A stretch of DNA of 64,000 bases from Micromonospora pallida (lineage in GTDB: Bacteria > Actinomycetota > Actinomycetes > Mycobacteriales > Micromonosporaceae), in NCBI RefSeq assembly GCF_900090325.1, contig NZ_FMHW01000002.1:1612001-1676000 (forward strand), in the 5' to 3' direction. Both the position numbers and the translations under genes were made by a program. Below are positions 15,919 through 34,321 of this stretch, in pieces (position 1 is the first letter of the stretch; every line of letters begins with the position of its first letter). The notes below the pieces were generated by a model. It saw only the letters and a list, made by a program, of their open reading frames with translations, did not search any database and was not told the DNA's origin.

Positions 15919-16009
15919 CCGAAGCCGCGGAAGGCCCCGTGCCGTCCGCGCGGTCGCCGGCTCGGGCAGCGGCCGACTCGACCAGTCCGCCGTAGGTCCG
16001 GTCGATGGT

Positions 16010-16774: not shown

Positions 16775-16827
16775 GACGGCCAGCGTAGCGCCGGCTGACC
16801 GGTGTCCGGTGGCGGCGGGTGGTTACG

Positions 16828-16842
16828 CTGACCATCGGTCAG
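16828..16842. promoter_or_regulatory. candidate TetR operator
   Basis: CTGACC and GGTCAG flank ATC in the 109-base gap between the divergent TetR regulator and the ABC ATPase gene. Confidence 0.6.
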
Positions 16843-16843
16843 T

Positions 16844-16857
16844 ACAGTGTGCACTGT
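16844..16857. promoter_or_regulatory. second palindrome next to the TetR operator
   Basis: ACAGTG and CACTGT flank TG, one base after the first palindrome. The centres of the two are about 15 bases apart, so two dimers could bind side by side. Confidence 0.45.
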
Positions 16858-16883
16858 TCGGTTTGTGAACGACAGGAGGCGTC

Positions 16884-17804
16884 ATGGCCGTCATCTCGGT
16901 CAACGACCTGGTCAAGACCTTCGGCCGCACCCGGGCCCTGGACGGGCTCGACCTGCGCGTCGAGGCGGGGGAGGTGCATGGCTTCCTCGGTCCGAACGGC
17001 GCCGGCAAGTCCACCACCATCCGGGTCCTGCTCGGGCTGCTGCGGTGGGACTCCGGGGACGTACGACTGCTCGGCGGCGACCCGTGGCGGGACGCCGTCG
17101 CCCTGCACCGCCGGCTCGCGTACGTGCCCGGTGACGTCAACCTCTGGCCGAACCTCTCCGGCGGCGAGGCCATCGACCTGCTCGGCGCGCTGCGCGGCGG
17201 ACTCGACCGGCGGCGGCGCGACGAGCTGCTCCAGCGGTTCGACCTCGACCCCACGAAGAAGTGCCGCACCTATTCCAAGGGCAACCGGCAGAAGGTGGCG
17301 ATCGTCGCGGCGTTCGCCGCCGCCGCCGAGCTGTACGTGCTGGACGAGCCGACCTCCGGCCTGGACCCGCTGATGGAGGCGGTCTTCCAGGACGAGGTCC
17401 GGCGGATCAAGCGCGACGGCGGCACCGTGCTCCTCTCCAGTCACGTGCTCGCCGAGGTCGAGGCGCTCTGCGACCGGGTCAGCATCATCCGGGAGGGCCG
17501 CACCGTCGAGTCCGGCACCCTCGCCGAGCTGCGTCACCTCACCCGGCTGTCGGTCACCGTCGAGACCGCACGCCCGGTGACCGGGCTCGACCAGCTCGCC
17601 GGGACGCACGCGGTCGGTGAGGCCGACGGCCGGCTCCACCTGGAGGTCGACCCCGCGCACCTGGACGACCTGCTGGCCCACCTGGTCCGGTTCGGCGTAC
17701 GGTCGCTGATCAGCGCGCCGCCCACTCTCGAGGAGCTGTTCCTGGCCCACTACGGCAGCCGGGTCACTCCCCGCACCGCGACCACCTCGGCGGGGCAGCG
17801 GTGA
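16884..17804 (+). CDS. ABC exporter ATP-binding protein (tetronasin-resistance type)
   Basis: A 306-residue ATPase with Walker [11 protein letters not shown] (about 36-45), an unusual signature [16 protein letters not shown] in place of LSGGQ, Walker [15 protein letters not shown] and switch [13 protein letters not shown]. This signature variant is typical of exporters that carry polyketide or ionophore antibiotics. AGGAGG precedes the ATG. The stop overlaps the permease start by GTGA. It is divergent from the TetR/HTH fusion regulator, consistent with drug-inducible efflux. Confidence 0.92.
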
Positions 17805-19426
17805 GCGCCCTCACCGGCACCGGCCACCTGGTCCGGCTGGTGCTGCGCAGAGACCGGATCAGGCTGGCGTTCTGGCTGGTCGGTACGCCACTGCTGACCG
17901 CCGCGCTGGCCGCCAGCGTCGCCGGCATCTACGCCGGGGAACGGGACCGGATCGGCTACGCCACGACCGCGGCGGCCAGCCTGGTCGCCCGCGCGTTCAA
18001 CGGGCCGGTCGGCGGGCCGAGCCTGGGCTCGGTGGTGTTCGCCGAGTCGTACCTGACCCTCGCCGTCCTCACCGCGCTGCTGAGCACCTTCGCCGTGGTC
18101 CGGCACACCCGGCAGAACGAGGAGACCGGCCGCGCCGAGCTGCTCGGCGCCGCTGTGCTCGGCCGGTACGCCTCGCTCACCGCCGCCCTGCTGGTCACCG
18201 TCGCGGCCAACCTGCTCACCGCCGCGCTGGTCGCCCTCGCCCTGGTCGGCGCGGGCCTGCCGGCCGGCGGGTCGGTCGCCACCGCCGCCGCGGTCGCCAC
18301 CGTCGGGATCTCCTTCGCGGCGGTCGCCGCGGTGACCGCCCAGCTCTCCGGCACCTCCCGGGGCGCGAACGCGCTCGCCGCGGCGGTCGTCGGGGTGGCG
18401 TTCGCGCTCCGCGCCGCCGGTGACGTGTTCGGCGACATCACGCCCGACGGACTGCGTGTGGTCAGCGCCTGGCCGGCGTGGCTCTCCCCGCTCGGCTGGG
18501 CGACCCAGATCCGCCCGTACGACCACGAGCGCTGGTGGGTGCTCCTCCTGCCCGCCGCGCTGCTGGCTGTGGCGGCGCTGGCCGCGTACCTGCTGACGAA
18601 CCGGCGGGACCTCGGGGCCGGCCTGCTCGCCATCCGGCGCGGCCCGGCCGTGGCGCCCCGGGGCCTGCTCAGCCCGTTCGGCCTGGCCTGGCGGTTGCAA
18701 CGCGCCGCCCTGCTCGGCTGGGCGGTCGGGGTCGCCGTGCTCGGCTTCGCCATGGGGCTCGCCGCCGACGAGGTTCAGAACATGATCGGGGAGAACGCCG
18801 CAGCGGCCGAGGCGATCGGTCAGCTCGGCGGCGGGGCGAACCTGGTCGACGCGTACCTGACCGCGATGCTCGGGATCTTCGCGCTGACCATCGGCGCGTA
18901 CGTCGTCCAGTCGGTGCTGCGCACCCGCACCGAGGAGACCGACGGCACCCTGGAGGCGCTGCTGGCCACCCCCGTCGGCCGGCCCCGCTGGCTGGCCGGC
19001 CACCTGGCCACCACGGTGCTCGGCGCGACCGGCCTGATGGTCCTGGCCGGGGTCAGCACCGGAGCCGGGTACGCCACGGTCGCCGGCGACCCGGTCGGCC
19101 GGATCGGTGAGCTGACCGGCGCGGCCCTGGTCCGGGTGCCGGCGCTGCTGGTGCTGGCCGGGGTGGTGGTGCTGTTCTTCGGGCTGCTGCCCCGCGCGGC
19201 GGTGCCGCTGTCCTGGGCGACGTTGATCGTGTTCCTGCTGCTCGGGCAGCTCGGGGCGGTGCTGGAGCTGCCGCAGGTGATGCTCGACCTCTCGCCGTAC
19301 ACGCACGTGCCGGCGCTGCCGGCGACGGACCTGACGGTGTTGCCACTGGCCGTGCTGACCGGGATCGCGGTGCTGCTGCTCGCCGCCGGCCTGGCCGGGT
19401 TCCGCCGCCGCGACCTCACCGGCTGA
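17801..19426 (+). CDS. ABC exporter permease (tetronasin-type, polyketide antibiotic exporter family)
   Basis: A 541-residue membrane protein with two homologous halves and about twelve hydrophobic segments. Family features are [17 protein letters not shown] at the N-terminus, [22 protein letters not shown] in the first half and [25 protein letters not shown] in the second, matching the internal duplication of TnrB3-like exporters. The GTG start overlaps the ATPase stop. The substrate is unknown, probably a hydrophobic antibiotic or lipid. Confidence 0.9.
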
Positions 19427-20299: not shown

Positions 20300-23200
20300 T
20301 CAGCGGCGCCACTCCGGTAGCTGCCGTTGGGACATGTGCCGCCAGAACTGACGTAGCTGCGAGCGGGACACGTTCTGCCAGGGCGCCCGCGCGCTGAGCA
20401 GGTACCACGGTGAGGTGAGGTCCGCCTGCCGCGCACAGAAGTTCTGGTCCAGCTCGTGCGGCTGCGGTTCACCTTCGGCCGGCAGGGGGCAGAGCCGGAA
20501 CGGGCAGTCGTCCAGACAGGTGGCCCCCGGAGAGCAGGACTCCGAGGTCGCCAACGTGCGGTCGGGGCGCAGTGGGCGGCGGTCGTTGGTCAGGCAGGGC
20601 GGCAGATCGGCGCGGTCCGCGCGGGTCAGCCGGTCCTCCCGGTCGATGAGCAGGTCCCCCCGGTCGGCGAGGTTCAGCAGCAGCATGACGTCGGCCAGCA
20701 GGCGCTGGGCGTGCGGGGTGAGGACACTCCAGCCGCTCGAGTCGGGAATCCACAGGGACTGTTCCCGGCGGACCTCCGCCACCTTGCTGCTCGATCCGAC
20801 CCGGCTGGAGGTCTCCCGTTCGTCGACCCAGCAGTACCGTTCCGGACGGCGGCTGAGCAGGGCGCGCACGCAGAGTCGACCGGCCTCCGTCAGGAAGGGG
20901 TGCGTCCGACCCGGCGTCCGTCCCCGCACCGCCTGGCCGGCGATCCGCAACCAGTGCCGCACCAGGCCGTACGGGTTCGCGCCGGGTTCCCGGCGGGGCA
21001 GCGGCTCGGCCGGGTCGAATGGCAGGGAGAAGAGCGTGAGCGCCTGGAGCAGCACCAGTTGGCTGTACCAGAATCGGGAGTGGGCCAATGCCCGCTCCGC
21101 CTTCTCGACGAGGAAGCTGCGGTGGGACGGGGTGCGACCGACCAGGGGACGGCGGATGTTCGCGGCCAGCCGGAAACCCTGGGCCAACGCGATTTCCGAG
21201 GTGATCGGGACATGGCTCTCCGGGCGAGCGGGGTGGTACGCCTCCAGTGCGCGTAGCCACTCCCGCAGATCGCCTCCCACCTGCGTGATCTCCGTGGTCG
21301 GCCCGAGCGGAGTCTCGTCGGTGTCCTGGTGGGCGGACTGGTAGAGCAACGGCAGAATCCAGCCCCGCAACTGCTGCTCCCAGTACGCGAGATGTTCCGC
21401 CCGGCGGTCGGCGGTGGCACTGCGCCCCATCTCACGGGGCCCGACGCCGCCCACCTCGCGCAGGCAACGCACCGCCGTCCGGCCACCCAGGCCGATCTCC
21501 CGGGCCGCGGCGAGCCGGACCCGGTACGAGCCCTCCCGGCTGGCCAGTCGGAAGAAGGCAGCGTAGTCGGGTTCGAGATCGACGTCGTCGGCCCGGCCAC
21601 CCCGTTCCGGCCGGGGCGTCCGTGACCGGTCGACGATCAGTCGCGCGGCGTCCCCGATCCGGCGGACGAGCTGGAGCCTGGCCTGGTTGGCCGGCCGGTT
21701 GGGAACGTACCCCGCGCCAGTACCCTCCCACCGTTCTTCGATCTCCCGGACCAGGTCGGCGTGCACCGGCCGGCGGGCACTGGTGTCGATCTCCACTGCC
21801 GTGGCGTACAACTCGAAGCGCCAGCAGAGGTCCTGCTCCGAGTTCGCCTTCTCCCGCAGGTGCCGCACCAGCCGGGCGACCGGCTCCTGGCGCTGGGTGA
21901 TCGGGAGACGCTCGGTCAGGGGCGGTCGTTCGCTCCGCCCGGCGGCCAGGTGTCGGGAGAGAAGGGTCAACGCGATCAGCGCCTCCGGGTTGCGTCGTGA
22001 CGTGATCAGGCGGCCCAGCAACCGGTCCAGCAGTTTCGGGTCGGTGAGGTACCGCATGCCCAGGTATGCCTGGACGACGCCGTGCAGGAACTGGGCCTCG
22101 GTCCGGCGGACGTCCACGATCGACCACTCCGCGCCTTCGACGAAGGCGTGCGTGATGTGGTCCAGGGCGTTGGACCGGATGCGGTCGCCGAGTCGGTCGT
22201 GCAGCGTCTCCAGGATCGCCCACTGCTCTGCGCAGTGGTACCGCGTCATGTCCTGGTATTCGAGGTGGCTGGTCCCGCGTACCAGGGCGAGGCACGCGAA
22301 GGCGGACAGCACCTCCAGGGTGGCTGCCCGGTCGTCGCGGCCCCGGCTGACGTCCCGTTTGAGGGTGCCGTCGAGCAGGGCGGCCCGCCAGGCGTCGAGC
22401 AACCGCCACCGGGCTTCGTACCGGTCCATGGGCCGTACCACCCCGCCGGTCTCGGTCCGGGACAACTGCGGCAACCGGTCGCACCGGTGCAGGGCGCGGA
22501 TGACGGTCAGGAAGAACGGGGAGTCGGTCACGTCCGCTGCCTTGACCAGCGCGGCGATCCCCGCCCAGGAGGAGCGCATCACCTCCGCCGTGCCGTCGAG
22601 CCCGTGCTCCAGAGCGGCTCCCTCGCCGAGCGGCTCCAACCCGACCAGGATCGCCCGCATGCCACGTAACGGGTCGTACGGGCGGGAGGTCACGATCAGC
22701 GGTAGCCGTGCCTCGGCGGCCTGGCTGATCGCCTCCCGCAGGACGTTCTCCTCGCTCTGTTCCTCGTCCCGTCCGAACGGCTCGTGCAGTCCGTCGGCGA
22801 GTACCGCGATCCGGTTGCTCATCCGCAGGTGCCGCCAGATCCGCATTCCGGAACCGTCGCTGAACAGCTTGGCGTCCACCAGTTCCTGGAACCGCTGTCT
22901 GGCGAGTTCCTCGAAGGCGAGTTCTGCGGCGAGCCGGGCGTCGCGCATCCGCACCGGCACCGGCACGATTCCGCGGCGCGCGAGCTGTCGGGTCAACTCG
23001 ACGACGATGGCGGTCTTCCCGGTGCCCACCCCACCGACGAGCACGACAGGGCAGCGCACCTGCGGGTCCCGGATCCGTTCGATGAGCACCTCGCAGAGCT
23101 CGTCGCGGCCGACGACCCGGTCGACGCTGGGGTCGGCGGTCGCCACCAGAGCGGTGGCCGACGCCTGGGCCCGCTGGTTGTACCAGCGGTGGACTCGTCG

Positions 23201-23608
23201 CTTGTTCAGCACGTAGAACAGGGCCAGACCGAGCGCGGCGGCGACGAGCGGCTGGAAGAACCGGGTGAGAGTGGTGCAGGGCGCCCGCCGTTCCCCGGCG
23301 CAGGGAGTCCAGAGGGTCGGCAGGCGCTCGCTGAGCCACCGGCGTCCCTCGGCCGGAAAGAGCAGTTGGTAGAGGGGGTCGAGGACCTGGACGACGAGGC
23401 AGACGGCGACGACGAGCATGACGATCGCGGCCAGCGCGCTCCACCAGCGGTGCCGGGGCCACCTGCGGGAGCGGGTCGGCAGACCGTCGGCGCGGACGCG
23501 CTGCCAGTGCTGCTCCTCGCTACTGACCCGGGTTTCTACCGTGCGGGCCAGCTTCGCCAACGAGATCCGTGGACTCCACAGGCGCCGGCGCCAGAGCGGA
23601 CCGCGCAT
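20300..23608 (-). CDS. large membrane-anchored STAND/NACHT-type P-loop NTPase
   Basis: A 1102-residue protein. A basic N-terminus is followed by two membrane helices (about 57-76 and 117-134) that bracket a short external loop with two Cys. A P-loop VGGVGTGKTA (191-200), Walker B region NRIAVLADGLHEP (265-277) and VTSRP (306-310) mark a NACHT-like ATPase. The remaining 700 residues are helical without a recognised catalytic domain. A Cys cluster near the C-terminus (CSPGATCLDDCPFRLCP, then NFCARQ) could bind metal. STAND proteins switch from monomer to oligomer on sensing a trigger and often act in defence or signalling; no effector domain is obvious here. The start is ATG after a GGGGG-rich stretch. 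Confidence 0.7.
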   Translation of the reverse strand: MRGPLWRRRLWSPRISLAKLARTVETRVSSEEQHWQRVRADGLPTRSRRWPRHRWWSALAAIVMLVVAVCLVVQVLDPLYQLLFPAEGRRWLSERLPTLWTPCAGERRAPCTTLTRFFQPLVAAALGLALFYVLNKRRVHRWYNQRAQASATALVATADPSVDRVVGRDELCEVLIERIRDPQVRCPVVLVGGVGTGKTAIVVELTRQLARRGIVPVPVRMRDARLAAELAFEELARQRFQELVDAKLFSDGSGMRIWRHLRMSNRIAVLADGLHEPFGRDEEQSEENVLREAISQAAEARLPLIVTSRPYDPLRGMRAILVGLEPLGEGAALEHGLDGTAEVMRSSWAGIAALVKAADVTDSPFFLTVIRALHRCDRLPQLSRTETGGVVRPMDRYEARWRLLDAWRAALLDGTLKRDVSRGRDDRAATLEVLSAFACLALVRGTSHLEYQDMTRYHCAEQWAILETLHDRLGDRIRSNALDHITHAFVEGAEWSIVDVRRTEAQFLHGVVQAYLGMRYLTDPKLLDRLLGRLITSRRNPEALIALTLLSRHLAAGRSERPPLTERLPITQRQEPVARLVRHLREKANSEQDLCWRFELYATAVEIDTSARRPVHADLVREIEERWEGTGAGYVPNRPANQARLQLVRRIGDAARLIVDRSRTPRPERGGRADDVDLEPDYAAFFRLASREGSYRVRLAAAREIGLGGRTAVRCLREVGGVGPREMGRSATADRRAEHLAYWEQQLRGWILPLLYQSAHQDTDETPLGPTTEITQVGGDLREWLRALEAYHPARPESHVPITSEIALAQGFRLAANIRRPLVGRTPSHRSFLVEKAERALAHSRFWYSQLVLLQALTLFSLPFDPAEPLPRREPGANPYGLVRHWLRIAGQAVRGRTPGRTHPFLTEAGRLCVRALLSRRPERYCWVDERETSSRVGSSSKVAEVRREQSLWIPDSSGWSVLTPHAQRLLADVMLLLNLADRGDLLIDREDRLTRADRADLPPCLTNDRRPLRPDRTLATSESCSPGATCLDDCPFRLCPLPAEGEPQPHELDQNFCARQADLTSPWYLLSARAPWQNVSRSQLRQFWRHMSQRQLPEWRR

Positions 23609-25623: not shown

Positions 25624-25646
25624 TTTCCTATTGACCCTATAGGAAA
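25624..25646. promoter_or_regulatory. operator palindrome over the -35 box
   Basis: TTTCCTAT and ATAGGAAA are perfect inverted arms with a 7-base spacer that contains most of the -35 element of the downstream operon. Confidence 0.7.
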
Positions 25647-25659
25647 AGCAGCCTACGGT
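25631..25659 (+). promoter_or_regulatory. sigma70-type promoter of the organosulfur-like operon
   Basis: TTGACC (25631-25636), 17 bases, TACGGT (25654-25659), about 83 bases upstream of the first ATG. This is one of the best consensus matches in the window. The -35 is embedded in the palindrome. Confidence 0.65.
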
Positions 25660-25741
25660 GGCGGTCGTGGTTGAGTATCAAGGCGCTTGATGTCGCCGGT
25701 CGCCACGCTTCCGTTCTCGCCCCAGTGAGAGAGACCGCCCC

Positions 25742-26719
25742 ATGCGCTCCTACCCCCTCACGGCGCCGGCGCTCCGCCGGCTGGCCGCCGGATTCGCCGC
25801 TGCCGCCCTGATCGGACTGACCGCCTGCACCCCCGGCGCCGCCGAACCCGCGGCCGGCACGAGCGAGTCCCCGAGCGGAGTGACCGACCTCTCCGCCCAA
25901 GCCCAACTGAAGCCCACCTTCACCGCCGACGAGACGCTGCGGGCGCTGCTCCCCGAGCGTCTGCGCAGTTCCGGGGTGGTGCGTACCGCCACCAGCGTCG
26001 GACTGCCGCCGATCAACTTTCCGGGTGGGTCCTCCACCGAGGTGAAGGGCCTCAACGCCGACCTGGTGGCGGCGGTCGAGCAACTGCTCGGGGTCCGGTT
26101 CCAGTCGGAGAACTACCCGAGCACCGCGGCCCAGCTCCTGGCCCTGGACTCCAAGCGGATCGACCTGACCACGTCCACCAACGGCGACACCAAGGCCCGA
26201 CAGGAGAAGTACGACTTCGTCGACATCCTGCTCTCCCGCAACGTGCTGATGGTCAAGGTGGGCAACCCGGCCGGCCTCACCTCCGCCGCCGACGTGTGCG
26301 GTCGGCGGTTCGGCGAGGTCAAGGGCTCGTTCTCGGTGCTGCCGACCCTGCGGGACGTGTGCCAGAAGGCGGGCCGTCCGGAGCCGGAGGTGTCCAGCTT
26401 CGAGGACATCCCCTCCATGCAGTTGGCGCTGGCCTCGGGACGGATCGACACGTACGTGGGCAGCGACTTCAACGTGGTCTGGGACAAGTCCCAGGGCAAG
26501 GCGGTCGACTCGGTCGCGCTGCCGGAGGCGGGCACGCTGGTGCTCGGCTGGACCGTACGCAAGGGCGACGAGGGGCTACGCGACGCCGTCCTGGGCGCGT
26601 TGCGGAAGCTGCACGAGGACGGCTACTACGCCGAGGCGTTCGACCGCTGGGGCCTGTCGTCCAACCGGCTCGACCCCGGCGTGAACATCGGTGCGCAGGG
26701 CACGGGGTTCAACGGGTGA
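25742..26719 (+). CDS. ABC transporter amino-acid-type solute-binding lipoprotein
   Basis: A 325-residue lipoprotein. The signal peptide ends in the lipobox GLTAC (Cys about residue 29), then an acidic Ala/Ser linker. The family 3 (polar amino acid) binding fold is seen in VVRTATSVGLPPINF, STEVKGLNADLVAAVEQLLGV, TSTNGDTKARQEKYDFVDILL and LGWTVRKGDEGLRDAVLGAL. It is the extracytoplasmic receptor for the permease and ATPase encoded five and six genes downstream. GAGAGA precedes the ATG. The gene ends in a GTGA overlap with the CoA-transferase. The ligand is unknown; the operon suggests a sulfur-containing acid. Confidence 0.9.
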   Translation: MRSYPLTAPALRRLAAGFAAAALIGLTACTPGAAEPAAGTSESPSGVTDLSAQAQLKPTFTADETLRALLPERLRSSGVVRTATSVGLPPINFPGGSSTEVKGLNADLVAAVEQLLGVRFQSENYPSTAAQLLALDSKRIDLTTSTNGDTKARQEKYDFVDILLSRNVLMVKVGNPAGLTSAADVCGRRFGEVKGSFSVLPTLRDVCQKAGRPEPEVSSFEDIPSMQLALASGRIDTYVGSDFNVVWDKSQGKAVDSVALPEAGTLVLGWTVRKGDEGLRDAVLGALRKLHEDGYYAEAFDRWGLSSNRLDPGVNIGAQGTGFNG

Positions 26720-27882
26720 GCACCGACCTGTCCGGCCCGCTCGCGGGCCACCGGATCATCGACTTCACCCGACTGATCGCCGGCCCGTGCGCCGGGGACC
26801 TGCTCGCCGCGATGGGCGCCGACGTGATCAAGGTGGAGGACGTCACCGGCGACCCCATGCGCAACGCGCGGTCGCGGCGCGTCGCCCGGGGCCTGACCGC
26901 GCCGTCGTTCGCGGCCTACAACGTCCACAAGCGTTCGGTGGCGCTCGACCTGAAGGACCCCGCCGGGCATGCGGCGGCGCTGCGGCTGTGCGACGGAGCC
27001 GACGCCGTGCTGTCGTCGTTCCGCCCCGGGGTGCTGGAGCGCCTCGGACTCGGCGCGGACGTGCTGCGCGCCCGTAATCCCCGGCTGGTGGTGGCACGGC
27101 TGTCGGCGTTCGGCGAGTCGGGCCCGGACCGGGACCGGGGCGGGGTCGACATCGTGATGCAGGCCGAGTCGGGACTCATGGCGGTCACCGGGGAGGCGGA
27201 CGGGCCACCCGTCAAGACGGGGGTGCCCATCATCGACGCGGCCTCGGGGTACGTGCTCGCGCTCGGGGTGGTCAGCGCCCTGCTCGGCCGGGAACGGGGT
27301 GGCCACCTGCGGGAGGTGACGGTGTCGATGCTCGACGTCGCGGTCCACCTGCAGGCCCAGCCGTTGGCCGAGTACCTGGACTCGCGGCAGGAGCCGGAAC
27401 GGGTCGGTAATCAGGCCCCCTACGCCGCCCCGGCAGACGTGTTCCCGGCAGCCGACGGCGCGTTGGTCCTCTCGGCCCACCTACCCCAGCACTGGACCCG
27501 CCTCTGCGAACTCCTCGACCGCCGCGAGTGGATCGACGACCCGCGTTTCCACGACGTCGGCGCGCGGGTGGCGAACCGGGAGGCCCTCTCGGCGGCGCTC
27601 GCCGAGGTGCTCCGGACCCGGCCGGTCGGGTACTGGCTGGACCTGTTCGCCGCCGCTGGGCTGACCGCCGGCCGCATCCGCACCTACCGGGAGGTCGTCG
27701 GCGACGGCACCTCCGCGTTCGTGGTGGACGCGCGGGATGTCGACAGCAGCCCGATCCAGGTGGTCCGTCCGCCGCTGCGCTTCCCGGGCTGGGCGGACGA
27801 CCTGCTGCCCCGCCAGATCCCGCGTACCGGCGAGCACACCGGCGAGGTCCTCGGCCACACCACCAAGGAGGCTGTGGCATGA
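26716..27882 (+). CDS. CaiB/BaiF family III CoA-transferase
   Basis: A 388-residue enzyme that would move CoA from a donor thioester to a carboxylate, activating the imported compound. The N-terminal signature IIDFTRLIAGPCAGDLLAAMGADVIKVE, the YNVHKRSVALDLKDPAG motif and the region around VDIVMQAESGLMAVTGE, which carries the presumed catalytic Asp, are intact. The length is normal. It is coupled on both sides by four-base overlaps (GTGA before, ATGA after). The acyl substrate is unknown; succinyl-, formyl- or carnitine-type members share these motifs. Confidence 0.9.
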   Translation: MSTDLSGPLAGHRIIDFTRLIAGPCAGDLLAAMGADVIKVEDVTGDPMRNARSRRVARGLTAPSFAAYNVHKRSVALDLKDPAGHAAALRLCDGADAVLSSFRPGVLERLGLGADVLRARNPRLVVARLSAFGESGPDRDRGGVDIVMQAESGLMAVTGEADGPPVKTGVPIIDAASGYVLALGVVSALLGRERGGHLREVTVSMLDVAVHLQAQPLAEYLDSRQEPERVGNQAPYAAPADVFPAADGALVLSAHLPQHWTRLCELLDRREWIDDPRFHDVGARVANREALSAALAEVLRTRPVGYWLDLFAAAGLTAGRIRTYREVVGDGTSAFVVDARDVDSSPIQVVRPPLRFPGWADDLLPRQIPRTGEHTGEVLGHTTKEAVA

Positions 27883-28640
27883 CCGCCGACGAAGCCACGG
27901 TGCTGCACCGGCAGGATCTCGACGGCGGCGTCGTGGTGCTGGAGATGGCCCGTCCGCACCGGCTCAACGCGATCTCGCGACAACTGGCCACGGCACTCGT
28001 CGACGCCCTCGACGGACTGGCGACGGAGCAGGCGGCCCGGGTGGTGGTGCTCGCCGGCGCGGGAGACCGCGCCTTCGGCGCCGGCATCGACATCCGGGAA
28101 CTGGCGGCCCAGACCCCACCGGAGCGGGACGTCCAGCAACGGACCATGGTGCGCCTGCAACGGACGTTGAGCGACTACCCGCGGCCGACGGTGGCCGTCG
28201 TCCACGGCATCGCGGCCGGCGCGTCGTTGCAGCTCGCGTTGCACTGTGACCTGCTGCTGGTCGGACCGGAGGCGCGGCTGGGCATGCCGGAACTCGGTGC
28301 CGGGCTGCCGGGGCTGCTGGGCGGTTGGCTGCTGCACACCCGGGGCGGCCCGCAACTGGCGGCGGACCTGCTGCTCGGCGGACGCTGGCTGTCCGGACCG
28401 GAAGCGGTCGCCGCCGGCCTGGCCGCCCGTCTCGTGCCGCTCGGCGAGGAACGCGCCACCGCCGTCGACGTCGCCCGGCAGATCGCCGGATACCAGCCGG
28501 ACGCGCTCGCCGCCACGCACGCCTGGCTGCGCCGGCTGCGGATCGGCGGCGCGGCCCCGTCGTTCGCGGAGGCGATCGACGCGGCCGGCGAGGTCCTGCA
28601 CGCGGCGAACCGCCGGCACCCGGGGGAGCGACCACGATGA
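27879..28640 (+). CDS. enoyl-CoA hydratase/isomerase family protein
   Basis: A 253-residue crotonase-fold protein. The first oxyanion loop AGDRAFGAGIDIREL and the second AVVHGIAAGASLQLALHCDLLL are present, as is MPELGAGLPG. The Glu of PEL is conserved, but the second catalytic Glu usually found after the GxAxGxG loop is replaced (GASLQ), so the reaction may be isomerisation, lyase or thioester hydrolysis rather than plain hydration. It acts presumably on the CoA ester made by the neighbouring CoA-transferase. ATGA overlaps at both ends. Confidence 0.9.
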   Translation: MTADEATVLHRQDLDGGVVVLEMARPHRLNAISRQLATALVDALDGLATEQAARVVVLAGAGDRAFGAGIDIRELAAQTPPERDVQQRTMVRLQRTLSDYPRPTVAVVHGIAAGASLQLALHCDLLLVGPEARLGMPELGAGLPGLLGGWLLHTRGGPQLAADLLLGGRWLSGPEAVAAGLAARLVPLGEERATAVDVARQIAGYQPDALAATHAWLRRLRIGGAAPSFAEAIDAAGEVLHAANRRHPGERPR

Positions 28641-29773
28641 GCGGGTACGACGACCCTTCCGACGGTCACCCCGCGAGCGGAACCCTCGACCTGGTCGCGG
28701 TCCGCGCCGACCTGCCCGCCGTGGACCGCCTGGTCTACCTCAACACGGGCACCGCCGGTCCGCTGCCGACGCCGGTCCGGGACGCGATGGTCACCGCGCT
28801 GGACGCCGACCTCACCCTGGGGCGGGCCTCGGGGCGGCGGTTCGCCCGCTTCGCCGAACACCTCGCCGAGACCCGCGACCTGCTGGCCCGGCTCGTGGGC
28901 GCCGACGCCGACGAGATCGTGCCGACCACCGGCACCACCGACGGGGTCACCCGCGTCCTGGCGGCGCAGCCCTGGGCGGCCGGGGACCGGGTCCTGGTCA
29001 CCGTGCTCGAGCACCCGGACGTGCTGCGGGCGGTACGGGACGTCGCCGGCCGCCACCATGCGACCGTCGTGGTGGTGCCCGGCGCGACGCCCGAGGAGAT
29101 CGGGGCGAACCTGAGCCGGGAACTGGCCGGCGGGGCGCGGCTGGTCGTCGTCTCGCATGTCACCTACGGCGCTGGGCTCGTGCTCCCGGTACCGGAGATC
29201 GTGGCGGCGGCCCGGCGACACCGGGCAGCGGTCCTCGTCGACGGGGCGCAGGCCGTCGGGGCGATCCGGGTCGACGTCCGCGTGCTCGGCGCCGACTACT
29301 ACGCCTTCCCCGGACAGAAGTGGCTGCTCGGCCCGGAGGGTGTCGGCGCGCTGGTCGTCGCCCACGGCAGCGCCGGATTGCCGGCCGCCGCGTTCGGTCC
29401 GGGTATGCCGTCGCCGGTGCTCTGGGAGGGTCTGCGGGCCGCGCTGGGGTGGCGGGAGCGGCACGGTACGCAGCGCTTCCCGGCCGCCGTCGTCGCGGGC
29501 GCCGCCGAGCTGCGGCGGGAGCTGGCCGGGATTCCGCAGGTCGAGGTGCTGGGCCTGGGTGCCGAAGCCGGACTGGTGACCATCCGGCTGCCGGACGTCG
29601 ACGCGGCACGGGTGGTGGCCGCGTTGGGCGCCCGGCGGATCGCCACCCGCGAGATCGCCGAGACCGACGGCGTGCGGCTGTCCCACGGCCCGTTCACCAC
29701 CGCCCAGGAGCGGCGGCTCGTGGTCGACGCCGTCGCGGAACTGGCCCGAGAACGAGGAACGGAGACGTGGTGA
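28637..29773 (+). CDS. PLP-dependent class V aminotransferase / cysteine-desulfurase-like enzyme
   Basis: A 378-residue fold-type I PLP enzyme. The Schiff-base lysine lies in YYAFPGQKWLLGPEGVGAL. Upstream are the cofactor Asp/Gln set VLVDGAQAVGAIRVDV and the N-terminal YLNTGTAGPLPTPVRDAM. The Thr-rich PTTGTTDGVTRVLAA binds phosphate. Sequence style is closer to isopenicillin-N-epimerase and cysteine-lyase-like members than to NifS/IscS, and I see no mobile catalytic-Cys loop. It could be a C-S lyase, desulfurase or epimerase. The context with a desulfinase-like gene favours C-S chemistry (inference). Confidence 0.85.
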   Translation: MSGYDDPSDGHPASGTLDLVAVRADLPAVDRLVYLNTGTAGPLPTPVRDAMVTALDADLTLGRASGRRFARFAEHLAETRDLLARLVGADADEIVPTTGTTDGVTRVLAAQPWAAGDRVLVTVLEHPDVLRAVRDVAGRHHATVVVVPGATPEEIGANLSRELAGGARLVVVSHVTYGAGLVLPVPEIVAAARRHRAAVLVDGAQAVGAIRVDVRVLGADYYAFPGQKWLLGPEGVGALVVAHGSAGLPAAAFGPGMPSPVLWEGLRAALGWRERHGTQRFPAAVVAGAAELRRELAGIPQVEVLGLGAEAGLVTIRLPDVDAARVVAALGARRIATREIAETDGVRLSHGPFTTAQERRLVVDAVAELARERGTETW

Positions 29774-30180
29774 GTCCAGCACAGGTCGGAGCCGAACCGC
29801 TGCTGCGGGACCGGCTCGGCATCGAAGTGCTGTCGGCGAGTCCGGACCGGGTCACCACCCGGATGCCGGTCGAGGGCAACCGGCAGCCCGCCGGGCTCCT
29901 GGCCGGCGGCGCGTCGTGCATGCTGGCCGAGTCGACCGCGTCCCTGGGCGCGAGCCTGCACGCCGCCGACCTGGGCGGAACCGCCGTGGGGCTGGAACTC
30001 AACGCCACCCATCACCGGGCGGTCCGCGACGGGCATGTCACCGCGGTCGCCGTCGCGCTGCGCCGTGGCCGGCGGGTGGCGAGCTACGAGGTGGTCATCA
30101 CCGACGACACGGGAACGCTCGTCTGCACGGCTCGGGTCACCTGCCTGGTCACCGTGGCCCCGAACGGGGGTACGGCATGA
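29770..30180 (+). CDS. PaaI-type hotdog thioesterase
   Basis: A 136-residue single-hotdog protein. The motif EGNRQPAGLLAGGASCMLAESTASLGAS corresponds to the PaaI/4HBT-II active-site helix, followed by GTAVGLELNATHHRAVRDGHVTA and the central strand ALRRGRRVASYEVVITDD. It would hydrolyse an acyl-CoA, releasing product acid and recycling CoA from the two CoA enzymes upstream. The GTG start overlaps the PLP enzyme stop, and the stop overlaps the permease ATG. Confidence 0.88.
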   Translation: MSPAQVGAEPLLRDRLGIEVLSASPDRVTTRMPVEGNRQPAGLLAGGASCMLAESTASLGASLHAADLGGTAVGLELNATHHRAVRDGHVTAVAVALRRGRRVASYEVVITDDTGTLVCTARVTCLVTVAPNGGTA

Positions 30181-31124
30181 GCGCCGTCGACGTCTCCCTC
30201 GACCGCGGGCCCGGCCCCACTGTGGACGGTCCCCGCGCCGACACCCCGGTGTTGACCGGCCGGCCGCATCCGTGGCGCTGGGTGGCCGGGCTGGTCGCGT
30301 TGGCGCTCTTCGGCGCCGGGGTGCACTCGCTGGCCCGCAACCCCGCCATGGACTGGCACGTCGCCGGGGAGTACTTCCTGTCCGAGCAGGTGCTGCGCGG
30401 GTTGTGGCTGACGCTGTGGCTCACCGCGGCCGTGACCGGGCTGGGCTTTCTCGGTGGCATCGTGGTGGCCGCGATGCGGCTGTCCAGCAATCCGGTGCTG
30501 GCCGCGATCGGCTGGGCGTACGTGTGGTTCTTCCGGTCCGTGCCGGTGCTGGTGCAACTGCTGTTCTGGTTCAACATCGGCTACCTGTACCCGACGCTGT
30601 CGCTCGGCGTGCCCGGCGGGCCGACCCTCTTCTCCGCGAACTCCACCGAACTGGTCAGCGCCACCACCGCGGCGATGCTCGGACTCACCCTGCACGAGGC
30701 CGCGCACGCCGGCGAGATCGTCCGGGGCGGCATCCTCGCCGTGGACCACGGGCAGCTCGAGGCCGGGGTGGCGCTCGGCCTGCGCCGGTCACGGATCTTC
30801 CGCCGGGTGGTGCTCCCGCAGGCGATGCGCAGCATCGTGCCGGCCACCGGCAACCTGCTCATCGGCACGCTGAAGGGCACCTCGATGGTCAGCGTGATCG
30901 CCGTGAACGATCTCCTGTACTCCGTCCAGTACATCTACAACCGTACCTACGAGGTCGTTCCGCTGCTGGCCGTGGCCACCGCCTGGTACCTGGTGGTGAC
31001 CTCGCTGCTGTCGGTGGCGCAGTACTACGTGGAACGCCACTTCGCGCGGGGCGCGCAGCGCAGTCTGCCACCGACGCCGCTGCGCCGCCTGTCCGCCCTC
31101 CTGCCCCTCTGGAGGAAGTCGTGA
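30177..31124 (+). CDS. ABC transporter permease, polar amino acid type
   Basis: A 315-residue HisM/GlnP-type permease with one helix near residue 40 and four to five more from about 75. The family core is clear: GLWLTLWLTAAVTGLGFLGG, VWFFRSVPVLVQLLFWFN, HEAAHAGEIVRGGILAVDHGQLEAGVALGL (EAA loop), and LPQAMRSIVPATGNLLIGTLKGTSMVSVI. A single permease gene implies a homodimer. It works with the adjacent ATPase and the lipoprotein at the head of the operon. Confidence 0.92.
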   Translation: MSAVDVSLDRGPGPTVDGPRADTPVLTGRPHPWRWVAGLVALALFGAGVHSLARNPAMDWHVAGEYFLSEQVLRGLWLTLWLTAAVTGLGFLGGIVVAAMRLSSNPVLAAIGWAYVWFFRSVPVLVQLLFWFNIGYLYPTLSLGVPGGPTLFSANSTELVSATTAAMLGLTLHEAAHAGEIVRGGILAVDHGQLEAGVALGLRRSRIFRRVVLPQAMRSIVPATGNLLIGTLKGTSMVSVIAVNDLLYSVQYIYNRTYEVVPLLAVATAWYLVVTSLLSVAQYYVERHFARGAQRSLPPTPLRRLSALLPLWRKS

Positions 31125-31918
31125 CGCAACGTCCCATGGTCCGGGTGGTCGACCTGCACAAGAGCTACGGCGGGAACCGCGTCCTGCGCGGCGTGGACCT
31201 CGACGTCGCCCGCGGCGAGGTGCTCTGTCTGATCGGCGCCTCCGGCTCTGGCAAGAGCACCCTGCTGCGCTGCGTGAACCATCTGGAGGCACCCGACGCG
31301 GGATTCGTGGAGGTCGACGGCGAACTCGTCGGCTACCGCGGGCACGGACGTCAGCTCCGGGCCCTGCCCGAGCGGCGTATCCGCCACCAGCGCGCCCAGA
31401 TCGGCATGGTGTTCCAGAGCTTCAACCTGTTCCCCAACCTCACCGCCCTGGACAACGTCGTCGAGGCCCCGGTCGCGGTCCGTGGTCTGTCCCACAGACA
31501 GGCCACGGCGGAGGCGCGCGACCTGCTGGCGCAGGTCGGACTCGCCGGCCGCGAGGACAGCTACCCGCGCCAGCTCTCCGGCGGGCAGCAACAGCGAGTC
31601 GCGATCGCGCGGGCGCTGGCGATGCGCCCGAAGGTCATGCTCTTCGACGAGCCGACCAGCGCGCTCGACCCGGAACTCGTCGCCGAGGTGCTCGAGGCCA
31701 TCCAGCGGCTGGCCCAGCAGGGCATGACCATGCTCATCGTCACCCACGAGCTGGGGTTCGCCCGGGCCGTCGCCGACCGGGTCGCCTTCGTCGACGACGG
31801 GCGGATCGTCGAACTCGGGCCGGCCCGGTCGGTGCTCGACGCGCCCCGCCACGACCGTACCCGCAGCTTCCTGAGCCGACTGGCCCGTTCGGCGGCGGAT
31901 GGGGAGGAACTCCGTTGA
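31121..31918 (+). CDS. ABC transporter ATP-binding protein, polar amino acid type
   Basis: A 265-residue GlnQ/HisP-like ATPase: Walker A GASGSGKSTLLRC, Q-loop MVFQSFNLFPNLTALDNV, signature LSGGQQQRVAIARALAM, Walker B VMLFDEPTSALDPEL, H-loop VTHELGFA. The GTG start is preceded by GGAGGAAG and overlaps the permease stop. It ends in a TTGA overlap with the desulfinase-like gene, tying transport and metabolism into one translational unit. Confidence 0.94.
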   Translation: MTQRPMVRVVDLHKSYGGNRVLRGVDLDVARGEVLCLIGASGSGKSTLLRCVNHLEAPDAGFVEVDGELVGYRGHGRQLRALPERRIRHQRAQIGMVFQSFNLFPNLTALDNVVEAPVAVRGLSHRQATAEARDLLAQVGLAGREDSYPRQLSGGQQQRVAIARALAMRPKVMLFDEPTSALDPELVAEVLEAIQRLAQQGMTMLIVTHELGFARAVADRVAFVDDGRIVELGPARSVLDAPRHDRTRSFLSRLARSAADGEELR

Positions 31919-32925
31919 CCGACGAACCGACCACCGTCTGGTACACCCGGTGCCCGGTCCCCACCGCCTCCGGCGTGGCGATCGACGTCGGACACCTGAC
32001 CGCGGCGGGGCTGACCGTCGCGCCGCTGCACCGCTCCGGGGCCACCGAGGCGCACTTCGACCACCGGCTGCCGGCGCTGTTCCGGGAGGGCGGGAACGTC
32101 CCCGCGCTCTGGGCCCGGTCCCGCGGCGAGCGCACCCGCCTGATCGGGCTCACCTGGGTGCCGGAAATGCAAACCGTGGTGACCCGCCGGGACAGCGGCA
32201 TCCACGAGCCCGGGGACCTGGTGGGGCGCCGGCTCGTCCTGCCCACCCACGGCGGGGAGCGGGTGGACTTCTTCCGCGCCATGGCGCTGCGCGGATTCGA
32301 CGCCGCCCTCCGCCTGACCGGACGGAGTCTGCGTGACGTACGGCTCGTCGACGCGCCCGCGCCGCTTCCGCGTACCACCGACGTCGGCGCCGAGGGCTTC
32401 TACGGGGCCACCGTGGCCGCGCTGCGCGCCGGCCTCGGTGACGTGGCGTACGTCAAGGGCGCACCCGGCGCCGACGTGCTGGCCGACGCTGACCTGCGGG
32501 TGGTCGTCGACCTGTCCGCCGTCCCGGACCCCCGGGCGCAGGTCAACAACGGCACCCCCCGCACGCTGACCGTCAGCGAGGAACTCCTGCTCCGGCATCC
32601 GGAGACGGTGGCCCGGTACGTCGCCGCCCTGCGCGACGCGGCTCGCTGGGCGGCCGCGAACCCGGAGCGGACCGCGCGAATCGTCGCCGCCGAGACCGGG
32701 TCCACCCTCGACGCCGTCCGCCGGGCGTACGGCGCCGACCTGGCGCGCTCGTTGACGCCCGAACTTCGTCCCGAGTGGATCGATCACCTTGAGGAGCAGA
32801 AACGGTTCCTGCTCCGGCACGGGGTGGTCGCCCGCGACTTCTCGATCGCCGACTGGATCGACGCCGGGCCGCTGGCCGGCTCGGACCGACACCTCAGCCC
32901 GCACACCACGGAGGCCACCTCGTGA
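31915..32925 (+). CDS. DszB-like sulfinate desulfinase family protein
   Basis: A 336-residue protein starting with TTG after a strong GGGGAGGAA site. It has a periplasmic-binding-protein fold but no signal peptide or lipobox, so it is cytosolic. It resembles DszB (2'-hydroxybiphenyl-2-sulfinate desulfinase): TRCPVPTAS matches the active-site SNCPVPNA (Cys13), and His47, Arg57 and Gly60 reproduce the spacing of DszB His60, Arg70 and Gly73 exactly. TRLIGLTWVP and the C-terminal FLLRHGVVARDFSIADWIDAG also align. DszB releases sulfite from an aryl sulfinate. No dszA or dszC monooxygenase is nearby, so the substrate probably differs. My comparison is from memory of the family. Confidence 0.78.
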   Translation: MTDEPTTVWYTRCPVPTASGVAIDVGHLTAAGLTVAPLHRSGATEAHFDHRLPALFREGGNVPALWARSRGERTRLIGLTWVPEMQTVVTRRDSGIHEPGDLVGRRLVLPTHGGERVDFFRAMALRGFDAALRLTGRSLRDVRLVDAPAPLPRTTDVGAEGFYGATVAALRAGLGDVAYVKGAPGADVLADADLRVVVDLSAVPDPRAQVNNGTPRTLTVSEELLLRHPETVARYVAALRDAARWAAANPERTARIVAAETGSTLDAVRRAYGADLARSLTPELRPEWIDHLEEQKRFLLRHGVVARDFSIADWIDAGPLAGSDRHLSPHTTEATS

Positions 32926-33785
32926 GCATCACCATCGGCACCCATCCCAACAACCTCGCCACCTGGATCCTCGGTCACGTCGAGGAACTCCAGGAGCCGC
33001 TGCGCCGGGTCGCCGGGGAGGTGCGGTTCGTCCGCTACGACGACGGACGCCGCACCACCGGTCTGCTCGTCGAGGGTGCCATCGACGTGGGCGCGACGGG
33101 TACCACCCCGCCGATCGTCGCCCAGGCCGAGCAGCTCGACGTCGTCTACCTGGCGGTCTCTGAGCCGCACCCGGACCCCGGGGGCATCGTGGTGCCCCGG
33201 GAGTCGCCGATCCGCACCCTGGCGGACCTGCGCGGGCGGAGCATCGCCTTCACTGTGGGCTCCTGGCAGACGCACGCGCTCGCGGTCGCTGTCGACCGGG
33301 CCGGTCTGGCCTGGGACGACGTGACCGTCGTCGACGTCCCGGCCACTGCGCAGGGCCGGGACTTCCTGGGGGCCGGTACCGACAGTTGGCTCGTCGTCGA
33401 TCCCGCCTACCGTCAGCTCGCCGATCTCACCGAGGTCCGGGTCGTCGCCGCCACCGAGGAACTCGTTCGGAACCGGTCGGTGTTCTTCGGTAACGGTGCC
33501 TGGGTACGGGACCATCCCGCCGAGGCCACCGCCTTCGTGGACGCGGTGGTCGCGGCCGAGGAGTGGGGGGCGACCCACCTCGACGAGGTCGCCGAACTCC
33601 TCTCCCGCAGCAGTCGGGGCGGTACCGCGCAGGTGTGGGGTCCGGCCCTGACCGGTCGACACTGGGGCGTCCACGCGGTGGACGAGGAGTTCCTCGCCGA
33701 GCAGCAGCACGCCGCCGATCTGCTGTACCGCTTCGGGGTGACTCCACAGGCGATCGTCGTCGTGGCGGCGGTGGCGGCGCGATGA
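32922..33785 (+). CDS. SsuA/NMT1-like binding-fold protein without signal peptide
   Basis: A 287-residue protein beginning directly with the first strand of the fold (MSITIGTHPNNLATWILG). The SsuA-type features are GAIDVGATGTTPPIVAQAEQ, PRESPIRTLADLRGRSIAFTVGSWQTHALAVAVDRAGL, and GTDSWLVVDPAYRQ. Classic SsuA proteins are exported sulfonate receptors. Here there is no leader or Cys, so the protein is either cytosolic, as its DszB-like neighbour, or exported by an unrecognised route. No second permease is present for it. It may be an enzyme or an intracellular ligand carrier. GTGA overlap with the preceding gene. Confidence 0.75.
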   Translation: MSITIGTHPNNLATWILGHVEELQEPLRRVAGEVRFVRYDDGRRTTGLLVEGAIDVGATGTTPPIVAQAEQLDVVYLAVSEPHPDPGGIVVPRESPIRTLADLRGRSIAFTVGSWQTHALAVAVDRAGLAWDDVTVVDVPATAQGRDFLGAGTDSWLVVDPAYRQLADLTEVRVVAATEELVRNRSVFFGNGAWVRDHPAEATAFVDAVVAAEEWGATHLDEVAELLSRSSRGGTAQVWGPALTGRHWGVHAVDEEFLAEQQHAADLLYRFGVTPQAIVVVAAVAAR

Positions 33786-33844
33786 GCGGGCGGCGGGGCG
33801 CGGGCCGGCGTCCGCCCCGCGTCCTGCCGCTGTACCCTGCCAGC

Positions 33845-34321
33845 GTGTCGCAGGCCGATCCCGTGCAACCCGACGACAACGCCCCGCCACCGGGTCTCCG
33901 GCTGCTGTACGCCATCGGTCGCCTGGACCGGGGCATCACCCGGGAGCTGCAACAGGGCCTGAAACCGCTCGGCCTCTCCCCGCATCAGTACGCCACCCTG
34001 ACCGTGCTGCGCGCCCGCAGTGGACTGAGCAACGCCCAGCTCGCCCGTCGTGCCTACGTCACCCCGCAGGCCATGATCCAGGTGCTCTCCTCCCTGCACG
34101 CCGACGGCCTGATCAGCCGCAGCCCGTCCGGCGACAACCAGCGGGTCCTCGAGATCAGCCTGACCGCCCGGGGACGTGAGGTCGTCGAACGCTGCGACCG
34201 CATCGCCGACGAGATCGAGGACCGGATGCTCGACGGCGTTCCGCCGGGCGAACGCCGGGCACTGCTGGATGCCGTCCGTGCCTGCGTCCAGCGGATCAAC
34301 GCCGGACTGCCGGGCGGTTGA
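33845..34321 (+). CDS. MarR family transcriptional regulator
   Basis: A 158-residue regulator: LDRGITRELQQGLKPLGLSPHQYATLTVLRA, recognition region LSNAQLARRAYVTPQAMIQVLSSLHADGLISR, wing SGDNQRVLEISLTARG. The GTG at 33845 lies six bases after TACCCT (33833-33838), suggesting its own leaderless promoter. An alternative ATG at 33782 overlaps the preceding stop (ATGA) and would add 21 Arg/Pro-rich residues. Both may be used. As the last gene it is the likely regulator of the operon and may bind the palindrome at 25624-25646 (inference). Confidence 0.85.
   Translation: MSQADPVQPDDNAPPPGLRLLYAIGRLDRGITRELQQGLKPLGLSPHQYATLTVLRARSGLSNAQLARRAYVTPQAMIQVLSSLHADGLISRSPSGDNQRVLEISLTARGREVVERCDRIADEIEDRMLDGVPPGERRALLDAVRACVQRINAGLPGG

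Follow-up and report, generated by a model that had tools for sequence, protein, structure and literature searches.

Gene content and organisation of the locus

Ten genes span positions 25742–34321 of the 64 kb stretch of Micromonospora pallida DNA analysed here (the window). All lie on the plus strand, and each of the nine junctions is an overlap; eight overlaps are of 4 bp as computed, and that between the hotdog and permease genes is also 4 bp when the permease is started at ATG 30177 (Table 1). For the Pfam and NCBIfam searches the permease was read from 30174 (GGC), 3 bp 5′ of this ATG. A fitting Pfam family was found for every one of the ten products, and the set named in an earlier, sequence-only reading of this DNA (importer, CaiB, crotonase, PLP enzyme, hotdog protein, DszB-like protein, SsuA-like protein and MarR regulator) is present in full.

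Table 1. Features of the ten-gene locus (positions in the window)
Feature	Position	Strand	Basis
Candidate promoter, TTGACC-17-TACGGT	25625–25659	+	Read by eye
Candidate operator TATCAAGGCGCTTGATGT, inverted repeat ATCAAG-N3-CTTGAT	25676–25693	.	Pattern search
Amino-acid-type solute-binding lipoprotein	25742–26719	+	PF00497; lipobox-like LTAC, hydrophobic N-terminus
Family III CoA-transferase (CaiB)	26716–27882	+	PF02515
Crotonase, Gln at one catalytic Glu position, second Glu present	27879–28640	+	Pfam, sequence alignment
Class V PLP enzyme, C-DES (cystine C-S lyase)-like, without cysteine	28637–29773	+	Sequence, fold
Hotdog thioesterase (EntH/PA1618-like)	29770–30180	+	Pfam, alignment
Amino-acid-type ABC permease	30177–31124	+	Pfam, NCBIfam; start moved to ATG 30177
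Amino-acid-type ABC ATPase	31121–31918	+	Pfam, NCBIfam
DszB-like protein, presumed cofactor-free desulfinase	31915–32925	+	Sequence, residues, fold
SsuA-like protein without signal peptide, presumed cytoplasmic	32922–33785	+	Sequence
MarR-family regulator	33782–34321	+	Pfam

A perfect inverted repeat, TTCCTAT-N7-ATAGGAA, covers the −35 box of the candidate promoter; it was dropped as an operator because the relatives' loci that were scanned gave no match. The candidate operator in Table 1 is matched once in the 64 kb window (at most two mismatches, both strands), 66 bp before the first gene. Its motif recurs 67–80 bp 5′ of the first gene in three related loci (L022, L023 and L024), with no match in two more (L025 and L026), the search pattern having been built from these very sequences.

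Conservation of the operon

A gene-neighbourhood scan found the full set of ten genes, in unchanged order, at 4 of the 67 loci fetched via the PLP gene, one from Nocardioides carbamazepini and three from Acrocarpospora. Chance clustering is untenable because the order is conserved in unrelated genera, and the proposal of an operon is supported. The scan relied on two peptide patterns, so that relatives with neither were missed; loci L001–L088 were searched and L009–L088 read for gene content, with L091 added, and gene starts in relatives were chosen by closeness to the start of the window gene.

A Salipiger locus keeps seven of the genes, those for the importer, CaiB, crotonase, PLP enzyme and hotdog protein, and has a YheO/PAS regulator in place of MarR. 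Neither a DszB-like nor an SsuA-like gene is present at this locus, and a search of the Salipiger genome at E ≤ 1e-10 found no DszB-like gene. The operon therefore consists of a seven-gene core and a DszB-like/SsuA-like add-on. At the border between the two, the ATPase and DszB-like genes overlap in all five actinobacterial copies. As deduced from organism names in separate match lists and not from the loci themselves, at least two of the three genes (PLP, DszB-like, SsuA-like) appear to occur together in Dactylosporangium, Nonomuraea, Sphaerisporangium, Streptosporangium, Amycolatopsis and Rhizobium puerariae.

No plasmid record was present at at least 60% identity among the matches listed (15 of 238 for the SsuA-like protein, 15 of 373 for the PLP enzyme and 11 of 11 for CaiB). 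An empty insertion site was sought via the downstream AI-2E gene in 61 genomes of the same genus, where the best match outside the own genome is 51% identical. The literature searched yielded no description of the ten-gene operon.

The importer and the enzymes of the core

The binding lipoprotein keeps an Arg that we take to be the carboxylate site of amino-acid binding proteins in all six copies, and all six have Ser in the column of the Asp that we take to be the ammonium site. Because of this Ser, the ligand may be something other than an α-amino acid, and the assumption that the importer must carry one is weakened. The top NCBIfam model for the ATPase is the cystine transporter TcyN, at 337 bits and thus under the cut-off of 406.

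The CaiB product is a class III CoA-transferase (PF02515, 368 bits against a cut-off of 23.3), falling below the cut-off of each NCBIfam equivalog listed. In line with the replaced Glu remarked upon earlier, six of six operon copies of the crotonase have Gln at the position of Glu in 9ula ('GGGCELAMSCD') and retain the second Glu ('MPEL'); Gln is seen at the same position in 4kd6 also. The hotdog thioesterase has its Glu, and the His of its HGG motif is replaced by Ala. Neither the CaiB nor the crotonase family is narrow enough to define the chemistry.

The nearest relative of the PLP enzyme is C-DES, both by sequence, at about 30% identity, and by fold. The PLP Lys is kept, and there is not one cysteine in the entire protein; the active-site persulfide Cys of SufS, IscS and CsdA is missing, and the NCBIfam desulfurase models listed all score below cut-off. 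The absence of Cys rules out a persulfide desulfurase. The label 'cysteine-desulfurase-like' given to this protein earlier is consequently wrong; it resembles C-DES, a cystine C-S lyase, and lyase activity is predicted. Since the DszB-like gene was not found in Salipiger, the link of the core to sulfur appears to rest mainly on this enzyme.

The DszB-like protein

Sequence alignment places Cys13, His47, Arg57 and Gly60 of the DszB-like product on C27, H60, R70 and G73 of DszB, so that the residues and the H-R-G spacing given in the sequence-only reading are correct. These four and the RxGG motif (here R-E-G-G) do not vary in any of the 18 aligned rows, the window copy included. Among the matches listed (120 of 1294), 117 of 120 homologues carry the combined Cys/His/RxGG motif; of the three exceptions, two (P0158 and P0175) have Gly at the Cys position and one (P0200) begins downstream. 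DszB, 28% identical, is the sole solved structure that the sequence search retrieved. In the fold search, 2de2 and 2de3 (DszB) fill the first three places (best E 8e-22) and TauA comes fourth (8e-15), so that by fold, too, the product is nearest to DszB. Because the catalytic residues are present and the product lies nearer to DszB than to the taurine/sulfonate binding proteins, it is by sequence no ordinary NMT1/taurine-binding protein lacking the Cys/His/Arg triad. No signal peptide is seen. By its Cys, its His/Arg/RxGG and its predicted fold, the protein appears to be a member of the DszB desulfinase family, with a presumed enzymatic role.

The SsuA-like protein and its pairing with DszB-like genes

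The SsuA-like product has no signal peptide, its N-terminal hydrophobicity being low. Its homologues in 24 aligned rows (of 34 listed) have no more than a few residues ahead of the first strand, and at one locus (L020) the tblastn match begins at residue 1. Because the signal peptide is missing, this product is unlikely to serve as a binding protein in the periplasm. A profile comparison shows, at a probability of 98.3%, that the DszB-like and SsuA-like families are kin; the Cys region lies outside the alignment.

Nine DszB-like loci outside the operon were examined with wide flanks, among them one unannotated locus (L016) whose neighbours were left out of the scan; an SsuA-like gene is present at five. 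All five loci with such a pair also have an SsuD-like monooxygenase, scoring below the curated cut-offs, and at two of them an RRHIDLARV..C leader peptide lies upstream. This leader is linked to cysteine supply; it was not found 5′ of the window operon or of its four relatives, nor at L018–L020. Desulfination by the add-on is supported by the residues and fold of the DszB-like protein, by the lack of signal peptides and by the pairs that elsewhere stand beside SsuD-like monooxygenases.

A proposed function for the operon

From gene content, gene order, conservation, predicted folds and catalytic residues, we infer a substrate, an order of steps and a set of reactions, to which together we give an even chance: the operon would let the cell take up and break down an organosulfur carboxylic acid, probably an S-conjugate of cysteine or a similar acid with a second carboxyl. 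The importer would take up the acid and the CoA-transferase convert it to its CoA thioester; the one-Glu crotonase would remove the α proton and expel the β-sulfur substituent by retro-Michael elimination, and the C-DES-like lyase would act on the amino-acid side, cutting the C-S bond there. CoA would be recycled by the hotdog thioesterase, and MarR would keep the operon repressed as long as no intermediate is present. In actinobacteria, where the add-on occurs, sulfite would be freed by the DszB-like protein and its cytoplasmic SsuA-like partner from a sulfinate that the pathway produces or encounters. The sequence-only reading had likewise proposed import, CoA activation and C-S cleavage. 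The CoA-linked enzymes and the DszB-like protein uphold it in part; desulfination falls outside the core, given the seven-gene Salipiger locus and the negative search of that genome for a DszB-like gene, and the pathway order is still tentative.

Several points count against this proposal, among them the negative Salipiger search, the low identity of the PLP enzyme to C-DES, the Ser in the ammonium-site column, the leader peptide not found before the operon, and the breadth of the CaiB and crotonase families, together with the Gln in 4kd6. By Pfam, none of the ten genes encodes a sulfur oxygenase that could supply the sulfinate. In addition, the DszB mechanism favoured by calculation in the available part of PMC6100217 is an electrophilic aromatic substitution, which fits aryl sulfinates, and Tyr63 of DszB is an invariant His here.

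A more specific form of the proposal, which we rate as improbable, is that both C-S bonds of an S-(carboxyalkyl)cysteine of plant or thiol origin, or of its oxidised form, are cut by the CoA/crotonase retro-Michael route and the PLP lyase in a pathway hitherto undescribed. A sulfinate side product, which could come from a sulfone whose β-elimination yields sulfinate directly, would be desulfinated by a new DszB subfamily with its SsuA-like partner. One example of such a substrate, S-(2-carboxyethyl)-L-cysteine, is abundant in legumes according to the available text of PMC9414067.

There is a modest chance that the core performs sulfur-independent catabolism of a carboxylic or amino acid and that a different task, for instance salvage of a sulfinated side chain in some substrates, accounts for the addition of the DszB-like/SsuA-like pair. 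The Salipiger locus, with its different regulator and without the pair, is consistent with this, as are the generality of CaiB, crotonase and hotdog proteins and the functional diversity of class V enzymes. However, two methods place the PLP enzyme nearest to C-DES, the ATPase is nearest to a cystine transporter (below cut-off), and the ATPase/DszB-like overlap is kept in all five actinobacterial copies.

It is unlikely that the imported compound is a sulfinate (3-sulfinopropionate or cysteine sulfinate, as the sequence-only reading had suggested) whose CoA ester the DszB-like protein desulfinates. The operon does hold both CaiB and the DszB-like protein, and in Variovorax a class III CoA-transferase, Act, activates 3-sulfinopropionate (PMC6370202, available part). 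The known desulfinase of 3-sulfinopropionyl-CoA is, however, of the acyl-CoA-dehydrogenase type in the same source, and Pfam detects neither this domain (AcdA) nor a 3MP dioxygenase in any of the ten operon proteins. This other type of desulfinase and the calculated aromatic mechanism of DszB make 3-sulfinopropionate, named earlier as a possible substrate, a weak candidate for the DszB-like protein. Moreover, the core exists without the DszB-like gene, and the crotonase and PLP enzyme would be left without a role. Finally, it is very unlikely that the DszB-like and SsuA-like products are non-enzymatic ligand sensors or buffers, binding proteins minus their signal peptides: both belong to the NMT1/SsuA fold family and the SsuA-like product retains SsuA-like motifs, its window copy having no Cys, but the DszB-like Cys, His and RxGG are invariant as described above, and the C[PA][VI]P motif is absent from the five further family members found in this genome, not counting the SsuA-like one.

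The operon is a rare, defined ten-gene unit scattered across distant genera of soil actinobacteria. A DszB-type desulfinase is likely, from sequence and predicted fold, to act here beyond thiophene desulfurisation, and many proteins labelled as ABC substrate-binding bear desulfinase residues, as the motif count among the matches listed indicates. Two of its products would commonly be annotated as transport proteins but look instead like proteins that remove sulfur in the cytoplasm, and an SsuA-like family without signal peptide, tied to DszB-like genes, comes into view. Our preferred reading offers a testable case of soil bacteria using a CoA route to draw sulfur from conjugates of cysteine or from similar acids.

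Comparison with known systems

With DszB, the 2′-hydroxybiphenyl-2-sulfinate desulfinase of the Rhodococcus 4S pathway, the window protein shares the fold, the equivalents of Cys27, His60, Arg70 and Gly73, and RxGG; by alignment, besides the change at Tyr63, Ser25 becomes Thr and Asn26 an invariant Arg. The 4S pathway differs in that no DszA- or DszC-type domain occurs among the ten products, as had been noted before, which rules out dibenzothiophene desulfurisation by the operon. SsuEADCB-type sulfonate utilisation likewise has an SsuA-like protein, and related pairs elsewhere adjoin SsuD-like monooxygenases; the window operon, in contrast, has no SsuD-type gene, a transporter of another family and an SsuA-like protein without signal peptide.

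The 3,3′-thiodipropionate (TDP)/3-sulfinopropionate pathway of Variovorax paradoxus TBEA6 employs, in the available part of PMC6370202, a class III CoA-transferase and enoyl-CoA hydratases, one of which, Ech-20, is stabilised by TDP-CoA and not by TDP. The window operon has in common with it a class III CoA-transferase and a crotonase-family protein for the CoA ester of a thio acid; it differs from the pathway so described in that its ten genes include neither a 3MP dioxygenase nor an AcdA-type desulfinase, their place being taken by the PLP lyase and the amino-acid ABC importer. With C-DES, the L-cysteine/cystine C-S lyase of Synechocystis, the window PLP enzyme has the PLP Lys in common, itself carrying no persulfide Cys; unlike C-DES, it is coupled to CoA enzymes.

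Layout and conservation of the operon

The ten co-directional genes proposed by the sequence-only reading are borne out by the ORF list, a start check and Pfam. They encode, in order, a binding lipoprotein, CaiB, a crotonase, a PLP enzyme, a hotdog protein, a permease, an ATPase, a DszB-like protein, an SsuA-like protein and a MarR regulator. With the permease begun at the ATG listed in the table, each of the nine junctions is a 4-bp overlap. The start at 25624 given in that reading is the beginning of a candidate promoter, read by eye.

Coordinates of the operon and of features discussed in the text
Sequence	Feature	Position	Strand
Window	Operon	25742-34321	+
Window	PLP enzyme	28637-29773	+
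Window	Permease, from ATG	30177-31124	+
Window	DszB-like protein	31915-32925	+
Window	SsuA-like protein	32922-33785	+
Window	Perfect inverted repeat	25625-25645	
Window	Long ORF beside operon	20300-23608	-
Window	Luciferase-like monooxygenase	57501-58391	-
L022, Acrocarpospora	Enolase-superfamily and amine oxidase-like genes	15789-18336	
L023, Acrocarpospora	Enolase-superfamily and amine oxidase-like genes	16436-18971	
L014, Sphingobium plasmid	Three DszB-like genes, adjoining ssu genes	7480-14323	
L016, Burkholderia arboris plasmid	Three DszB-like genes	7258-14081	
L013, Streptomyces sp. SAT1	Leader ORF	11699-11830	
L091, actinobacterium	Leader ORF	about 9205	

The window and three Acrocarpospora loci share the inverted repeat TATCAAGGCNCTTKATRT, a candidate MarR site, 66-80 bp 5' of the operon's first gene. 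Allowing up to two mismatches to a search pattern derived from the same sequences in which its matches were counted, it occurs once in the 64 kb and has no match in the Nocardioides or Salipiger loci. A perfect repeat, TTCCTAT-N7-ATAGGAA, spans the -35 box and has no match in the relatives scanned. The long ORF beside the operon appears by eye to encode a P-loop (NACHT-like) protein.

The operon is real and conserved. A scan for two peptide patterns from the PLP enzyme family, run over 84,980 species genomes, gave 67 loci, whose gene content was tested by tblastn with all ten window proteins. All ten genes, in the same order and on the same strand, are found in four of these, from Acrocarpospora pleiomorpha, macrocephala and catenulata (61-83% identity per protein) and Nocardioides carbamazepini (45-76%). 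Salipiger pentaromativorans has seven genes (42-61%), with a YheO-like PAS/HTH regulator between hotdog and permease. In the remaining 62 loci the PLP gene is not accompanied by the set; ABC, crotonase or CaiB relatives are scattered across some of these loci, and in Lachnoclostridium (L043) permease and ATPase relatives lie immediately 5' of the PLP gene. Overlap of neighbouring genes also prevails in the four full relatives, the MarR gene being set apart by 9-49 bp in three of them, given the starts chosen. In L022 and L023, apparent enolase-superfamily and flavin amine oxidase-like genes, identified by eye, lie 3' of the operon, with relatives of another amino-acid ABC transporter, the second, beyond them.

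The ten-gene unit is rare among the genomes searched. Among 394 genomes of the class the PLP query matched its own alone, and among 297 of the Acrocarpospora family only the three genomes already identified; with the PLP profile, Salipiger was the sole match among 385 genomes of its class. The DszB-like query matched five of 250 genomes of its own family, own included (the other four 41-49% identical), and its profile, at E <= 1e-60, two of 396 of the phylum, own included. Protein searches placed relatives of the PLP, DszB-like and SsuA-like proteins on contigs of matching length in additional organisms, including Dactylosporangium sp. CA-233914 (71-85% identity) and Rhizobium puerariae (47-52%); judged from protein listings and not from gene order, these three genes probably travel together more widely. 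In Micromonospora olivasterospora, a CoA-transferase-domain protein (P0274) aligns at 83% with one fifth of the SsuA-like sequence; a frame error or a rearranged operon copy may lie behind it.

CoA enzymes, importer and PLP enzyme

CaiB qualifies as a full member of PF02515, with no equivalog assigned. All six operon copies of the crotonase have Gln at the first of two positions that we take to be the catalytic Glu sites, as does the crotonase 4kd6, and keep the second. The retained Glu acts on the alpha proton in crotonases, so thiolate elimination or isomerisation would be possible and water addition less likely. The hotdog protein keeps its Glu in six of six copies and has Ala in place of the His of the PA1618 HGG motif. 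The binding protein retains, also in six of six, an Arg that is presumably the carboxylate site, but has Ser, with Asp adjacent, at the column of what we take to be the usual Asp; its ligand is thus likely to be a carboxylate, an alpha-amino acid being less sure.

The best PDB matches of the PLP enzyme are to the C-S lyase C-DES (E 2e-37), which is again closest to its model (pLDDT 87.5; E 4.7e-29, 30% identity). The window protein contains no cysteine, and 18 aligned relatives have no all-Cys column, the fullest holding Cys in nine, so a SufS/IscS persulfide role is impossible. The earlier cysteine-desulfurase-like label is therefore unsupported, as is a cysteine desulfurase system as the identity of the operon.

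The DszB-like and SsuA-like proteins

A phmmer search of the PDB with the DszB-like protein returned DszB only (E 3.8e-21 and 1.1e-19), aligning Cys13, His47, Arg57 and Gly60, the residues singled out from sequence, with DszB Cys27, His60, Arg70 and Gly73. The structure prediction then suggested as a check agrees: DszB is the top match of the model (pLDDT 88), ahead of TauA and SsuA. The NCBIfam SsuA family scores far below its cut-off (61.8 versus 163.5 bits). C.VP...H-9-RxGG is carried by 117 of the best 120 of 1294 homologues; in 18 aligned rows chosen from these 120, window included, C-P-V-P, His47, His50, R-E-G-G-N and N-N-G-T-P-R are invariant. According to one account of DszB, Cys27 is critical, His60 and Arg70 appear to hydrogen-bond substrate, the H60Q mutant loses only about 17-fold, RXGG is highly conserved among homologues, and calculation favours electrophilic aromatic substitution, with the Cys27 proton as electrophile (PMC6100217). 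DszB Tyr63 and Ser25 are replaced by His50 and Thr11, so biphenyl sulfinate is probably not the substrate.

The closest solved structure to the SsuA-like protein is SsuA. The window copy lacks cysteine, and a 24-row family alignment shows no signal peptide, the proteins opening only a few residues away from the first strand. We inspected, with wide flanks, nine DszB-like loci that do not belong to this type of operon (L013-L016, L018-L021, L091). An SsuA-like gene (35-39% identity, matching from residue 1 of the window protein) is present in L013, L018, L019, L020 and L091, each with a luciferase-type monooxygenase that scores best, below cut-off, against the NCBIfam models for alkanesulfonate monooxygenase (SsuD). 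No SsuA-like match was found in L014, L015, L016 or L021. L014 has genes annotated ssuD and ssuABC nearby, and L015 (Rhizobium T136) an LLM monooxygenase 5' and an acyl-CoA-dehydrogenase-family gene 3' of the DszB-like gene; neither of two neighbours scanned in L021 is a monooxygenase. A short ORF ending RRHIDLARV.SA.C, of a type we associate with actinobacterial sulfur genes, lies directly 5' of the DszB-like gene in L013 and L091; the pattern was not found in L018-L020, 5' of this operon or in its relatives. These contexts tie the DszB-like/SsuA-like pair to organosulfur assimilation. The three DszB-like genes in L014 are annotated as monooxygenases; those in L016, inside 7 kb, are unannotated.

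The genome has 21 PF00296 matches at E <= 1e-10, so a sulfur oxygenase encoded elsewhere could act with the operon. The window's own PF00296 protein (196 bits) lies about 23 kb from it.

Comparison with known systems

A literature search that covered few subscription journals found no published description of the operon among the papers listed. Organosulfur catabolism is the best reading, to which we give an even chance. Its main rival, which we consider unlikely, combines a sulfur-independent core, the seven genes shared with Salipiger, with a desulfination add-on, the DszB-like/SsuA-like pair. A profile search (E <= 1e-10) found no DszB-like gene in the Salipiger genome and one or two in each of the four other genomes searched with it; the C-DES-like PLP enzyme, for its part, belongs to the core.

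For organosulfur catabolism, S-(2-carboxyethyl)-L-cysteine is a candidate substrate only; PMC9414067 describes it, and the sulfoxide assumed to be its metabolite, as abundant in several legumes. In Variovorax, according to PMC6370202, thiodipropionate (TDP) catabolism uses the class III CoA-transferase Act, and two enoyl-CoA hydratases are required for growth with TDP; Ech-20 is stabilised by TDP-CoA and not by TDP, beta-elimination from TDP-CoA is postulated, and the desulfinase AcdA acts on 3SP-CoA. The operon resembles this pathway in using CaiB and a crotonase. It differs in that a PLP lyase and a DszB-like protein are present and the dioxygenase and AcdA are missing, which leaves the 3-sulfinopropionate route first suggested for it unsupported.
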